In this document: piece after piece, positions 4,236 to 15,266 of the stretch
How the letters are laid out: each line of letters opens with the position of its first letter
How positions within the stretch are numbered: the stretch's first letter is position 1
From: an uncultured Schlesneria sp.
GTDB taxonomy: Bacteria > Planctomycetota > Planctomycetia > Planctomycetales > Planctomycetaceae
Length of the DNA stretch: 64,000 nt
Assembly: GCA_903871875.1 (NCBI GenBank)
Contig: CAIQIR010000058.1
Location: forward strand, 124,001-188,000
Direction: 5' to 3'
Position numbers and translations under genes: made by a program
The notes under the pieces: model-generated
Told to the model about the DNA's origin: nothing
The model's input: the letters and a program-made list of their open reading frames with translations, nothing else
Databases searched by the model: none

Positions 4236-5992
4236 ACGGCCACGCCCGCCGTGGCGTGTTCGGGTTGCCAGTCAATCAACTGAAATTCGACGCTTTCTCG
4301 GCCTTGGAAGCGGTTGATAGTTGGTTGAAAGCAGATCGAAATCGGGCCGTTGTGTTGGGCCATTTCATCGGCCCATTCGCCACGGCCGAACGCCACGCCC
4401 CTCATTCGAGATCCGTACTGACGTACGAAGATCGAAAGATGGCGTTCCCCTTCGCCCATTTTTTTGGGCGGTGAAGCCAGTTCTACGTTCGAGGCTACAA
4501 AGATCGGACGCGGATTGGCTGCTCCAAAGGGGCCCAATCGTTCGAGTTCCGTCACCGAACGGATCGTAATGTCGCTCAATTGGACTTCCGCGTCGGCGTT
4601 CAATTCGGATGCACCCGGCAGGACTGAGTGATTCTCGGTGACATGCTGGACGAAGGCGGTCCGGAAGGCGTCGATATCGGTTGGCCGGATCTTCAAGCCA
4701 GCCGCGGCGTGATGTCCGCCGAAGGTGGCAAGGAAATCGCGACAGGCCGTTAGGCCAGCGTGCAAGTTGAAACCGGCATACGAACGGCCGGAGCCTTGGG
4801 CAAGTCCATCGAGTCCCCCGAGGGCGATCATGATCGTCGGGCGTTGAAAATGCTCTGCGACCCGTGTGGCGACGATACCGATGACGCCGGGATGCCATTC
4901 GTGGTGTGACAGAACCAGCGCTCGGTGATCGCCCCAGTCGGCATTCTCGTCCACCAATTCTTTGGCTTGCTTGAGAATTTTTCGTTCGACCGATTGTCGG
5001 TCCTTGTTCAGTCCGTCGAGATAAGTGGCCAGTGCCACCGCGCGTTCCGGGTCGCTTGTTGTTAGCAGTTCCACCGCCAGCCGAGCCTGACCCAGTCGGC
5101 CCGCCGCGTTAATCCGAGGAGCCACAGCGAAGGCGATGTCTTCGGCTTGCAGAGTGCCCTTGTCCAGAACCTTGGCTACTCGCAACAGTTCTTTCAGGCC
5201 GGGGTTGGCTCGGTCGAGCAGACTCGCCAATCCGAAATGGACCAGGACCCGGTTTTCATCGACCAGGGGCACCACGTCGGCGATTGTGCCGATTGCAGCG
5301 AGACCGATGGCACTGAGCAGGAATTCGCGCATTCGGGGCGTGGCTTTCTTGCCGTCGCCCATTCTCGCACAAATGGCCCAGGCCAATTTGAAGGCGACTC
5401 CTACGCCGCATAATTCGCCGAACGGGTAGTTGCCTGGAAGGCGAGGATGAACCAGAACGGCCGCCTCGGGAAATGCGACCGCAAAATTGTGATGATCGGT
5501 GATGATCAGTTCCAGACCAAGTTCCTTCGCCAGGGACGCTTCCGCACAACTGGTGATACCGCAGTCGACGCTGACCAGCAGTCGCGACGGATCTTCCGCA
5601 TGCAGTTGGCGAATGGCGTCACAATTCAGTCCGTATCCTTCTTCCAGCCGACAAGGAATGTAGTAGTCGACTTGGGCGCCGGACAGCTGAAGGCAATGCC
5701 ACAATAGGCTGGTCGAAGTAACGCCGTCGACATCGTAGTCGCCGTAGATTGTGATCCGTCGTCCCGATTTGACGGCCGCCACGATGCGATCGGCGGCTTC
5801 GCTAACGCCAGGTAGTTTTTCGGGATCGTGCAGCGTCGTCAATTTTTTTGCGAGATAGTTTTCGGCTGAGGCGGGTTCTTGATGACCGCGAGCGACCAGT
5901 ACCTGAGCGACCAGCGCGGTGATCTTGAGTCGGGCACTCAGATCCTTCACATAAGCGCGGTCATGGGCCGCAATTCGCCAGATTCGATGCAT
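4232..5992 (-). CDS. recJ: Single-stranded-DNA-specific exonuclease RecJ
   Basis: RecJ is a 5'-3' exonuclease on single-stranded DNA acting in RecF-pathway recombination, mismatch repair and base excision repair. The 586-residue length is normal. The DHH phosphoesterase motifs are present: DYDVDG (85-90), SVDCGI (141-146) and TDHH (165-168), which bind the catalytic Mn ions. The C-terminal DHHA1 part contains GGHHAAAG (425-432), followed by an OB-fold-like end. The ATG has GGAG eight bases upstream. An 8-bp hairpin lies just before that site (see 6009-6028). It is monocistronic as far as can be seen and converges on the secretion-ATPase gene. Confidence 0.95.
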   Translation of the reverse strand: MHRIWRIAAHDRAYVKDLSARLKITALVAQVLVARGHQEPASAENYLAKKLTTLHDPEKLPGVSEAADRIVAAVKSGRRITIYGDYDVDGVTSTSLLWHCLQLSGAQVDYYIPCRLEEGYGLNCDAIRQLHAEDPSRLLVSVDCGITSCAEASLAKELGLELIITDHHNFAVAFPEAAVLVHPRLPGNYPFGELCGVGVAFKLAWAICARMGDGKKATPRMREFLLSAIGLAAIGTIADVVPLVDENRVLVHFGLASLLDRANPGLKELLRVAKVLDKGTLQAEDIAFAVAPRINAAGRLGQARLAVELLTTSDPERAVALATYLDGLNKDRQSVERKILKQAKELVDENADWGDHRALVLSHHEWHPGVIGIVATRVAEHFQRPTIMIALGGLDGLAQGSGRSYAGFNLHAGLTACRDFLATFGGHHAAAGLKIRPTDIDAFRTAFVQHVTENHSVLPGASELNADAEVQLSDITIRSVTELERLGPFGAANPRPIFVASNVELASPPKKMGEGERHLSIFVRQYGSRMRGVAFGRGEWADEMAQHNGPISICFQPTINRFQGRESVEFQLIDWQPEHATAGVAV

Positions 5993-6008
5993 TCCAAAAC
6001 TCCTTTTT

Positions 6009-6028
6009 CACTCGTCGTTTGACGAGTG
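6009..6028 (-). promoter_or_regulatory. Hairpin in the recJ 5' leader
   Basis: CACTCGTC (6009-6016) and GACGAGTG (6021-6028) are perfect inverted repeats around a four-base loop. In the recJ mRNA this stem ends seven bases before the GGAG ribosome-binding site and could affect translation or mRNA stability. It is followed by five A residues, not U, so it is not a terminator for recJ-strand transcription. Confidence 0.4.
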
Positions 6029-6262
6029 TCATCTGACAAGCTGCGAATCGTCGAATTATTTGCCCGTCTTCTTCTTCAGTATGCAATCAGCAGACAGTGG
6101 GGTGAGAGCCTGTGTCACTTGTCAGCTTGATCGATTTCCGTGCCCTAGCATCTTGAAAACCATTGATGCAAACCAGCGAGCTTTGGATGAGACAGGATTA
6201 CAGCACGGTCAGGAATCGAAGTCAAAGCGGCCCCAGCTTTTGAGATTGGTCCCCAAGTCTCG

Positions 6263-6305
6263 CAAATTCGTCTTGCTGTGGTTTGAGGTCCGAAATACAA
6301 GCCAC
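6263..6305 (+). repeat. Leader element, copy 1, upstream of the glycan cluster
   Basis: This 43-base stretch matches 8275-8317 at 35 of 43 positions without gaps. The shared cores are TTTGAGGT and AATACAAGCCAC. It lies 133 bases before the first GT39-like gene. Both copies sit in non-coding DNA directly ahead of glycan genes, suggesting a shared regulatory site or transcript element. Confidence 0.6.
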
Positions 6306-6438
6306 AGGCTTTGATGGCCGGGATAGGTCGTTTGACGGTATCCGGCGATTGGACAGGATCTTGTTTTGTCGAAGTTCCTCACCATCTTTGGGGTGCGTTC
6401 ATCAGACCGTGACCGGTTCCCCGAAGGGGCACTTTCTT

Positions 6439-14205: not shown

Positions 14206-14967
14206 CTATTTGCGATCAGGTGTCGTGTTTGTCTTTTTTGCTGAGGGCACTGTCTGTGGCGAGTTCTGCAACGTCGCGTCAGGCGCCGGTGGCTGTGTTG
14301 CTGGAGTGTTTACGGGTACAGCGCCCGTCGCCGATAAATTGGGGCTCGCGATCATTCCGGCGTCCTCCAGGAAATAGCCCAACGACATTTTTACGGCTGC
14401 CAATTCACGTTCGAGGCTACGTTTGCTGCCGTGTGAATTCGGGTGCAGTCGTTTCCGCTCCAGTTGTGAGGGAATAGCGTCAGTAACGACGACTTGTGGA
14501 CCACCCACTCGCACTCCGATGAACGGAATTTCGACGTCAACGCCCGGTCTTTCGACGACACGTTGGGTTGGTGCGGGATTCGACGCGACCAATGAGCGGT
14601 CTCCCGATCCCCATTTCGAAGCGGTCGAATCCACCTGCGCGAACAGCGCTTGGATCTCGGTCAGTTGCTGTTGAAGGGCCTCAGTTTCCATGGGGCCATT
14701 CCGCAGGGCTTCTCGCATTTGTCCCGCCTGTGACCAGATCTCCTTGGCCGCTCGATAGGTCTCGGCATAGTTTGGCTGTTGCTGGTGATATCGACTAAGT
14801 TCCCAACAGAGTGAATTCGAGGTTTGAACCAATTGAGCGGCTCGTTCGTCAATTTGGACCGGATCGTCGAGAACGTCGACGGCCAAGGCGGGGACAACCC
14901 AGATCAGTGCCGTGAAAAGGCCTACGACCGCTGTCGTTGCCATCGTGTCCTGTCGTTGTGATTGCAT
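14206..14967 (-). CDS. Secreted protein of unknown function, 253 aa
   Basis: The ATG at 14967 is chosen because AAGAAAAGGA precedes it and a signal peptide follows directly (ATTAVVGLFTALIWVVPALA, cleavage near ALA-VDV). An upstream in-frame ATG at 15129 would force translation through a terminator hairpin and bury the signal peptide, so it is rejected. The mature part has a helical segment (about 25-125) and a Pro/Thr/Ala-rich C-terminal tail. No family is recognised. Its leader contains the structure described at 14995-15046. Confidence 0.7.
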   Translation of the reverse strand: MQSQRQDTMATTAVVGLFTALIWVVPALAVDVLDDPVQIDERAAQLVQTSNSLCWELSRYHQQQPNYAETYRAAKEIWSQAGQMREALRNGPMETEALQQQLTEIQALFAQVDSTASKWGSGDRSLVASNPAPTQRVVERPGVDVEIPFIGVRVGGPQVVVTDAIPSQLERKRLHPNSHGSKRSLERELAAVKMSLGYFLEDAGMIASPNLSATGAVPVNTPATQPPAPDATLQNSPQTVPSAKKTNTTPDRK

Positions 14968-14994
14968 GTGACGGTTCCTTTTCTTCTTTGGGCC

Positions 14995-15046
14995 AAAAAA
15001 AAGCCGACGCGGCAAACGATCCACAGATCGTTCATCGCGTCGGCTT
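14995..15046 (-). terminator. Strong intrinsic terminator/attenuator-like hairpin in a leader
   Basis: On the minus strand an outer stem (AAGCCGACGCG, paired between 15001-15011 and 15036-15046) encloses an inner stem (AACGATC/GATCGTT, 15015-15021 and 15026-15032) with a four-base loop, and is followed by eight T (15002-14995). This is a textbook intrinsic terminator. It ends only 27 bases before the start codon of the secreted protein at 14967, too little room for a promoter, so it may control that gene by attenuation. It may instead end the dehydrogenase transcript from upstream. Confidence 0.75.
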
Positions 15047-15147
15047 ACCGAATACCGTGCCCGCCAGCGGTTGCCAGCCTGCACCGTATCTTGTCTTCCA
15101 ACAATGTCGAACAGACCGCGAAATAGCAAAATTCCGCAGTCACTACG

Positions 15148-15175
15148 AGTTTAGCTCTCCCAAGGAAGAAGACAA
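15148..15175 (-). promoter_or_regulatory. Candidate promoter for the secreted protein with attenuator leader
   Basis: On the minus strand TTGTCT (15175-15170) and TAAACT (15153-15148) are 16 bases apart. A start near 15141 would give a leader of about 170 bases containing the terminator-like hairpin. Found by eye; two mismatches in each box. Confidence 0.3.
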
Positions 15176-15266
15176 GAAATTTCTGTGGAATAAAACCACA
15201 TCTCGTCGCTGCTACCGGAAATGCCGGCCATTGACGATCACCCGACGCGACCGTCTGACCGCCTGA

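Follow-up and report, generated by a model that had tools for sequence, protein, structure and literature searches.

A candidate class of leader RNAs that may control transcription of downstream genes in Planctomycetota

The hairpin locus and its neighbouring genes

The window analysed here is a stretch of 64,000 nucleotides from the genome of an uncultured Schlesneria sp. of the Planctomycetota. On its minus strand, a D-2-hydroxyacid dehydrogenase gene is followed by a gene for a protein with a signal-peptide-like start, referred to below as the secreted gene, and the features preceding the latter are collected in Table 1. The original prediction described a minus-strand hairpin at 15046-14995 with a bipartite stem and eight T, located 27 bases before a start codon, and proposed that it might be a transcription attenuator. 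This hairpin was indeed present in the sequence, with outer arms at 15046-15036 (AAGCCGACGCG) and 15011-15001 (CGCGTCGGCTT), an inner arm pair and a tetraloop; two of the eight T pair with AA. The spacing was confirmed as well, being 27 bases from the end of the T run at 14995 to the ATG at 14967. Folding of 14990-15060 gave -35.5 kcal/mol (z -5.1) and that of the whole leader (14968-15190) gave a z of -5.7, neither of which was equalled in 200 shuffles. A simple terminator scan reported only a 5-pair portion of the hairpin (15025-15008) and found 11 terminator-like sites around the region compared with 11.9 in shuffles, so the case for the hairpin rests on the folds and on the comparison with relatives. 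Its outer palindrome has one exact occurrence in the 7.6-Mb genome. The whole hairpin forms just the 3' part of a structured RNA of ~110 nt, which extends from 15102 to 14993 on the minus strand. The reading frame of the secreted gene (14206-15129, minus strand) is open throughout the terminator, as far as a TTG at 15129, probably by chance.

Table 1 Features of the putative leader and of its downstream gene
Feature	Position	Strand	Basis
Promoter candidate, TTGnnn...TAnnAT-type, TCTTGTCTTCTTCCTTGGGAGAGCTAAACT	15148..15177	-	EM motif common to 113/126 upstream regions
5' hairpin P0, GACTGCGGAAT-TTTGCT-ATTTCGCGGTC	15114..15141	-	Leader fold; transcript start would lie near 15141
Conserved 5' box TTGGAAGACA (family form UCGGANGACU)	15092..15101	-	96-copy alignment; conservation and alternative pairing
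P1/P2 domain, imperfect hairpin with conserved internal loops	15047..15091	-	Two-sided changes in 11/11 inner-helix pairs, 96 copies
Intrinsic-terminator hairpin and T run; outer 5' arm AAGCCGAC	14995..15046	-	Fold; arm near-invariant across the family
Downstream gene, 253-aa protein, signal-peptide-like start	14206..14967	-	No match in Pfam or NCBIfam

A single copy of the element resembles an ordinary terminator of the preceding gene, which is a practical trap. At this locus, the hairpin could accordingly end the dehydrogenase transcript, with the secreted gene on a promoter of its own, and the dehydrogenase stop codon, on the same strand, does precede the hairpin by 220 nt. Against this, a search of 59 genomes, one of them the own genome, for homologues of the secreted gene yielded the own gene and a further nine strong matches in eight other genomes. 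The leader was located directly 5' of the homologue in five loci (L005, L006, L007, L008, and L010), in all of which the dehydrogenase was absent from ~1.5 kb upstream. The hairpin is therefore not simply the dehydrogenase terminator, which the original prediction had named as a case that would overturn it. Furthermore, three close relatives of the dehydrogenase (L018-L020) are followed by different DNA, and the T run is only 27 nt from the ATG, leaving an ordinary dehydrogenase terminator very improbable. Of the ten homologues, counting the own gene, four (L009, L011, L012, and L016) lacked the leader, and it was present before two more homologues (L179 and L180), whose homology was judged by the protein start.

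Distribution, orientation and promoter motif of the copies

A first covariance model was built from six leaders, and matches were taken at E<=0.01. As a result, matches came from 50 of the 150 genomes sampled in the bacterial family, representing 25 of 58 genera, with multiple copies in many genomes. The rebuilt model identified six strong copies in the own genome and matches in 10 of the 15 genomes of the genus, the other five being without a match. Genome G006 had the largest copy number, with 31 matches corresponding to 28 places; the family and genus match counts contain opposite-strand half-matches of the palindrome. At a strict, insensitive setting, 16 of 392 genomes were matched across the phylum. 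Matches were also found in 10 of 41 genomes of another planctomycete family in 9 of 39 genomes of a distant planctomycete order, and in 9 of 17 genomes of one family of that order. Presence is a lower bound because 25 candidates were scored per genome in the family survey and 9 in the phylum survey, and some weak matches of the phylum survey, such as that of G506 at 34.7 bits, may be chance. A control set of 34 named genomes comprised five planctomycetes and 29 others, and matching rows were converted to places by dropping opposite-strand half-matches. Two of the five planctomycetes were matched, namely a MAG named Planctomicrobium piriforme (12 places from 20 rows) and one Planctomycetota MAG (10 places from 15 rows), and three were without a match. 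Among the 29 non-planctomycetes, two had a single weak match (35.2 bits in one and 28.4 bits in the other), and both were attributed to chance. Searches of plasmid and viral collections, one of them with the protein as query, gave no match, using tools with little power for a covarying RNA. The element thus occurs in many, not all, of the planctomycetes examined, and the original observation was right but understated, as the hairpin belongs to one copy of a larger RNA family.

The orientation of the element was assessed in 128 copies at about 59 bits and above, with genes called by a codon model, after five repeat rows (L005, L083, L086, L088, and L145) and weaker rows, mostly opposite-strand half-matches, had been dropped. 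The downstream gene was on the same strand in 122 copies, on the opposite strand in five, and absent in one, and the resulting 122/127 may be low, since three of the opposite cases (L110, L117, and L120) have an uncalled same-strand frame of 147 aa at 72-73 nt. The upstream gene was on the same strand in 63 copies and on the opposite strand in 62, with none in three. A further 40 copies from outside the model were examined, leaving out both L148 copies, L138 (already present as L169), L239 at a contig end, and half-matches. Their downstream genes were same-strand in 36 cases, opposite in none and uncalled in four, and their upstream genes were same-strand in 21, opposite in 15 and absent in four. 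By origin, the ratios of same to opposite strand were 21:0 downstream (two uncalled of 23) and 11:9 upstream for another family, and 15:0 downstream (two uncalled of 17) and 10:6 upstream for the distant order. The gap from the element to the start codon had a median of 121 nt and was shorter than 60 nt in 30 of 122 copies, where there is hardly any room for a second promoter. A mobile REP- or MITE-like palindrome spread between genes would likewise be multi-copy, palindromic and mostly intergenic. However, the element is fixed in orientation to the downstream gene (122/127 and 36/36 copies face a same-strand gene) with the promoter on one side, its aligned copies differ widely in sequence and carry compensating changes, and the outer palindrome of the own copy is single in the genome. 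The mobile repeat was accordingly rejected, its probability being close to negligible.

An unguided EM motif search 5' of the element revealed one promoter-like motif in 113 of 126 upstream regions. It consists of a TTGC-type box, a 16-nt spacer and TAnnAT, and the middle half of the sites begin 74-90 nt before the element. For a hold-out, the motif was trained on half of the copies and the threshold was set at the 95% level of 389 control gene upstream regions; 33 of the 63 held-back copies passed and 30 fell below, compared with 4 of 63 passing among shuffled ones. The own site, at -75, ranked in the top 2.8% of the 389 controls, but the own copy was in the training half. The promoter originally proposed at 15148-15175, which would give a leader of ~170 bases, coincides with this family-wide motif, but was missing from a sigma-70 consensus scan. 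On sequence grounds, the layout of a putative promoter, a structured leader, a hairpin with a U run and a same-strand gene is present. The attenuator-like arrangement put forward in the original prediction was thereby borne out at this level, through the leader kept before the secreted gene, the same-strand downstream genes and the predicted promoter 5' of the element.

Some same-strand copies stand in tandem, 10-16 nt apart (L111 9193-9426, L115 4259-4486, and L118 7327-7559), and three same-strand copies were found within 500 nt on contig C165 of genome G585 (5816-6313). By analogy with tandem riboswitches, tandem copies could give a steeper response. Divergent pairs of elements ~210 nt apart were also observed (L117, 8434 on the minus and 8754 on the plus strand; also L110, L120, and L123), one side of which faces a 147-aa cysteine-rich protein that we take to be reminiscent of small copper-binding proteins.

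Conserved structure and alternative pairing

The distinct sequences among the collected copies were assembled into an alignment of 96 rows (A3). The consensus structure consists of the 5' box UCGGANGACU, the imperfect P1/P2 hairpin with its conserved internal loops, AGU, and a long terminator AAGCCGACG...CGUCGGCUU-U(n) that AGU directly adjoins, and the terminator hairpin is present in all aligned copies. Two-sided compensatory changes occurred in 29 of the 34 base pairs. Cells with such changes numbered 420 versus 112 (sd 9) in shuffles, and 92.9% of 3242 cells were paired versus 30-45% in slid controls; the copies share kinship, so the shuffle and binomial values overstate the certainty. The outer terminator arm was 95% identical across copies and the inner arm 68%. 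Greater conservation of the outer arm is odd for a plain terminator and is read as a dual constraint. The GGA of the 5' box was conserved at 97-99% per position and kept in nearly all distant copies inspected, and the box containing it was unpaired in the consensus fold of the terminated form. The 45 nt preceding the element had a mean fold z of -1.17, with 24% of copies below -2, compared with -0.26 and 5% for a control stretch; an extra hairpin often lies between the promoter and the element, and the two directly adjoin each other in some copies. A sub-type without P0, in which the promoter motif is directly at the element (L117 698-811, L120 13181-13294, L123 1123-1236, and L110 4623-4734), has a different terminator arm, AAGCCGACCAACGG, and precedes small DUF5670-like genes or 1061-aa response-regulator genes.

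The original prediction had suggested comparing the leader in relatives for conserved alternative pairing. In the own copy, TTGG at 15101-15098 can pair with CCGA at 15043-15040, and this complementarity is kept in the main group, where the box UCGG and the terminator-arm CCGA are complementary in 96.1% of cells of the 96 copies and are almost invariant, with one two-sided change. When the transcript was truncated ahead of the 3' arm, its predicted fold contained the box/arm helix in 94 of 96 copies. Shuffled boxes paired at the same arm site in 321 of 480 folds, and composition thus accounts for part of the pairing. In the most distant copies, only GG/CC was constant, flanked by ACU/AGU and purine-rich positions, while the other two positions mixed matches and mismatches; the true unit may be an extended helix with a three-by-three purine loop. 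Formation of the box/arm helix would leave the terminator base beside the T run open, and UCGG/CCGA can therefore be regarded as an antiterminator layout, which is suggested by conserved complementarity and which covariation does not prove.

We infer that transcription would start ~40-50 nt before the element, which would then be transcribed first. By default, the long hairpin would form and RNA polymerase would stop at the T run. If the 5' box were held paired with AGUAAGCCGA, which comprises the 3' side of the P1/P2 domain and the base of the terminator's 5' arm, the terminator base could not close and transcription would enter the gene. The gene would be switched on by a ligand or protein stabilising the P1/P2 domain, a signal whose existence and nature we likewise infer. 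The terminated state was favoured over the opened state by an average of 14.5 kcal/mol. Default off is therefore to be expected, a ligand or protein would have to act during transcription, and switching would need timing or a strong partner. The comparison shows the conserved structure, the promoter motif, the orientation and position, and the gene set described below, and from these we consider it likely that the element represents a class of planctomycete leader RNAs, each controlling transcription of the gene that follows it. The element probably decides whether each downstream gene is read.

The preference for the terminated form by 14.5 kcal/mol would also suit a set of sibling small RNAs, in which each copy is a stand-alone sRNA gene of ~150 nt that has a promoter and a terminator to itself and acts in trans, and the downstream gene is a read-through bystander. 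The promoter motif in most copies, the terminator hairpin in all aligned ones, the several copies per genome with tandem copies 10-16 nt apart, and the GGA-containing box left unpaired in the terminated-form consensus fold are consistent with such genes. Stand-alone genes, however, need not face a gene, whereas the downstream gene was on the same strand in 122/127 and 36/36 cases with the upstream gene about even, and the gap to it was below 60 nt in 30 of 122. Independent sRNA genes are hence an improbable explanation.

Trp-type leader-peptide attenuators are similar to the element in having a leader and a terminator, and would be so in competing pairing; the element differs in having no conserved start codon. 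A leader peptide had been suspected from close relatives, which show a short frame MT..SKPT, and was rejected: the own copy starts with AAG, the frame breaks in L005, and its position varies. At the would-be ATG the middle base varies between copies, and neither the start codon nor the frame is conserved.

Downstream genes and comparison with known RNA families

A set of 104 downstream proteins was compiled from 112 same-strand genes within 600 nt, with the first 60 residues distinct, a length of at least 40 residues, and sequences cut at 400 residues. Among the best 25 of 95 families, these proteins included MpsC (10), response regulator (7), BON, DUF3309 and CsbD (5 each), P-type ATPase (4), ice-binding-like and DUF5670 (3 each), and KaiC, CheB, CheR, SpoIIAA-like and CsrA (2 each). 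In another planctomycete family, Hsp70 and a sigma-70 factor were found behind the element. Different genes followed it in the distant order, encoding carbonic anhydrase, SulP, PurE, OAD_gamma, Fe-S and cytochrome proteins, and an aminotransferase. Within the own genome, the element precedes genes for KaiC (named from its sequence), an ArsA ATPase and a DUF1571 protein, a chalcone-synthase-like gene, a gene for a 75-aa protein without a match, and the secreted gene. The downstream genes are often stress-type, a label that we assume from the usual annotation of families such as MpsC, BON, CsbD, DUF3309, KaiC, response regulators and Hsp70. MpsC was also encoded upstream in 18 of 78 cases (78 of 84 upstream neighbours formed this set), mostly divergently, as at L184 3179-3556. 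The downstream genes are diverse, and since their set in part reflects a neighbourhood in common, it does not identify the signal.

The best reading of the element is a new candidate class of transcription-attenuating leader, off by default and switched on by a ligand or protein. One tentative possibility is an orphan riboswitch class, old within Planctomycetota, in which a single ligand, serving as a global stress or energy signal, would act via transcription antitermination on a stress-type regulon of small stress proteins, histidine kinases, a sigma factor, Hsp70 and ion pumps. An RNA sensor with up to 28 copies per genome would then do the job that a general-stress sigma factor does elsewhere. 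To our knowledge, such a candidate riboswitch would be unusual in its copies per genome and in preceding a stress-type gene set rather than one pathway. A limited literature search on general stress control in planctomycetes found no planctomycete study among the titles listed. The leader before many stress-type genes offers a handle on this subject, as whatever relieves the terminator would reveal the signal of the regulon. A bicarbonate or CO2 signal, hinted at by carbonic anhydrase, SulP, PurE and OAD_gamma in distant copies and by MpsC in the main group, was rejected because it misfits most genes.

The switch could also be operated by a protein, if a CsrA-like or other RNA-binding protein held or blocked the GGA of the 5' box and so set the choice between terminator and antiterminator. 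CsrA binds GGA, normally using paired GGA sites. The near-invariant GGA, kept even in distant copies, together with the CsrA-family genes among those downstream (2/104), which would fit self-control, makes a CsrA-like protein a serious rival. Nevertheless, just one GGA is constant across the copies, and this reading offers no account of the P1/P2 domain and its internal loops; we judge control by such a protein somewhat unlikely.

The absence of a known aptamer, asserted in the original prediction, agreed with the search of Rfam, in which no family fits the leader. Rfam 15 gave no family match in the window at the gathering score, and at relaxed thresholds 25 loci gave only sub-threshold matches to unrelated families, including miRNA and snoRNA families, speF, and STnc500; the STnc500 match scored 20.1 bits, compared with a gathering score of 44, and lay on the opposite strand to the L007 element. 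No recognised description of the element was found in the literature searched. The pfl motif is the ZTP riboswitch. In the part of the 2010 survey that treats it (PMC2864571), pfl is a terminator-type riboswitch whose terminator overlaps its 3' region. The candidate leader resembles it in that a structured domain comes first, the terminator overlaps the 3' region of that domain, and stabilisation of the domain is expected to raise gene expression. It differs from terminator-type riboswitches in having no Rfam match at relaxed thresholds in the copies scanned and up to 28 copies in one genome. The same survey lists Rhodopirellula-1 as cis-regulatory ('y'), from Planctomycetes and Proteobacteria, with no Rfam number and '?' for RNA evidence; the likeness is one of table entry, and as the consensus is outside the main text, the element may have been detected earlier. 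The YjbJ motif WRC-39-1, as described in the pertinent part of PMC11109978, was reported from Streptococcus only, with 40 representatives and one gene type. By that description it is similar in having two hairpins, the second terminator-like and followed after ~30 nt by the SD and AUG of its gene, which was compared to the CsbD stress family.

Regulatory genes were also observed behind the element, encoding CsrA-family proteins and a sigma-70-type factor (L118 7043-7270, L114 3794-4120, and L231 444-1478), the CsrA-family proteins having been placed at their loci from their sequences. This arrangement suggests layered control.
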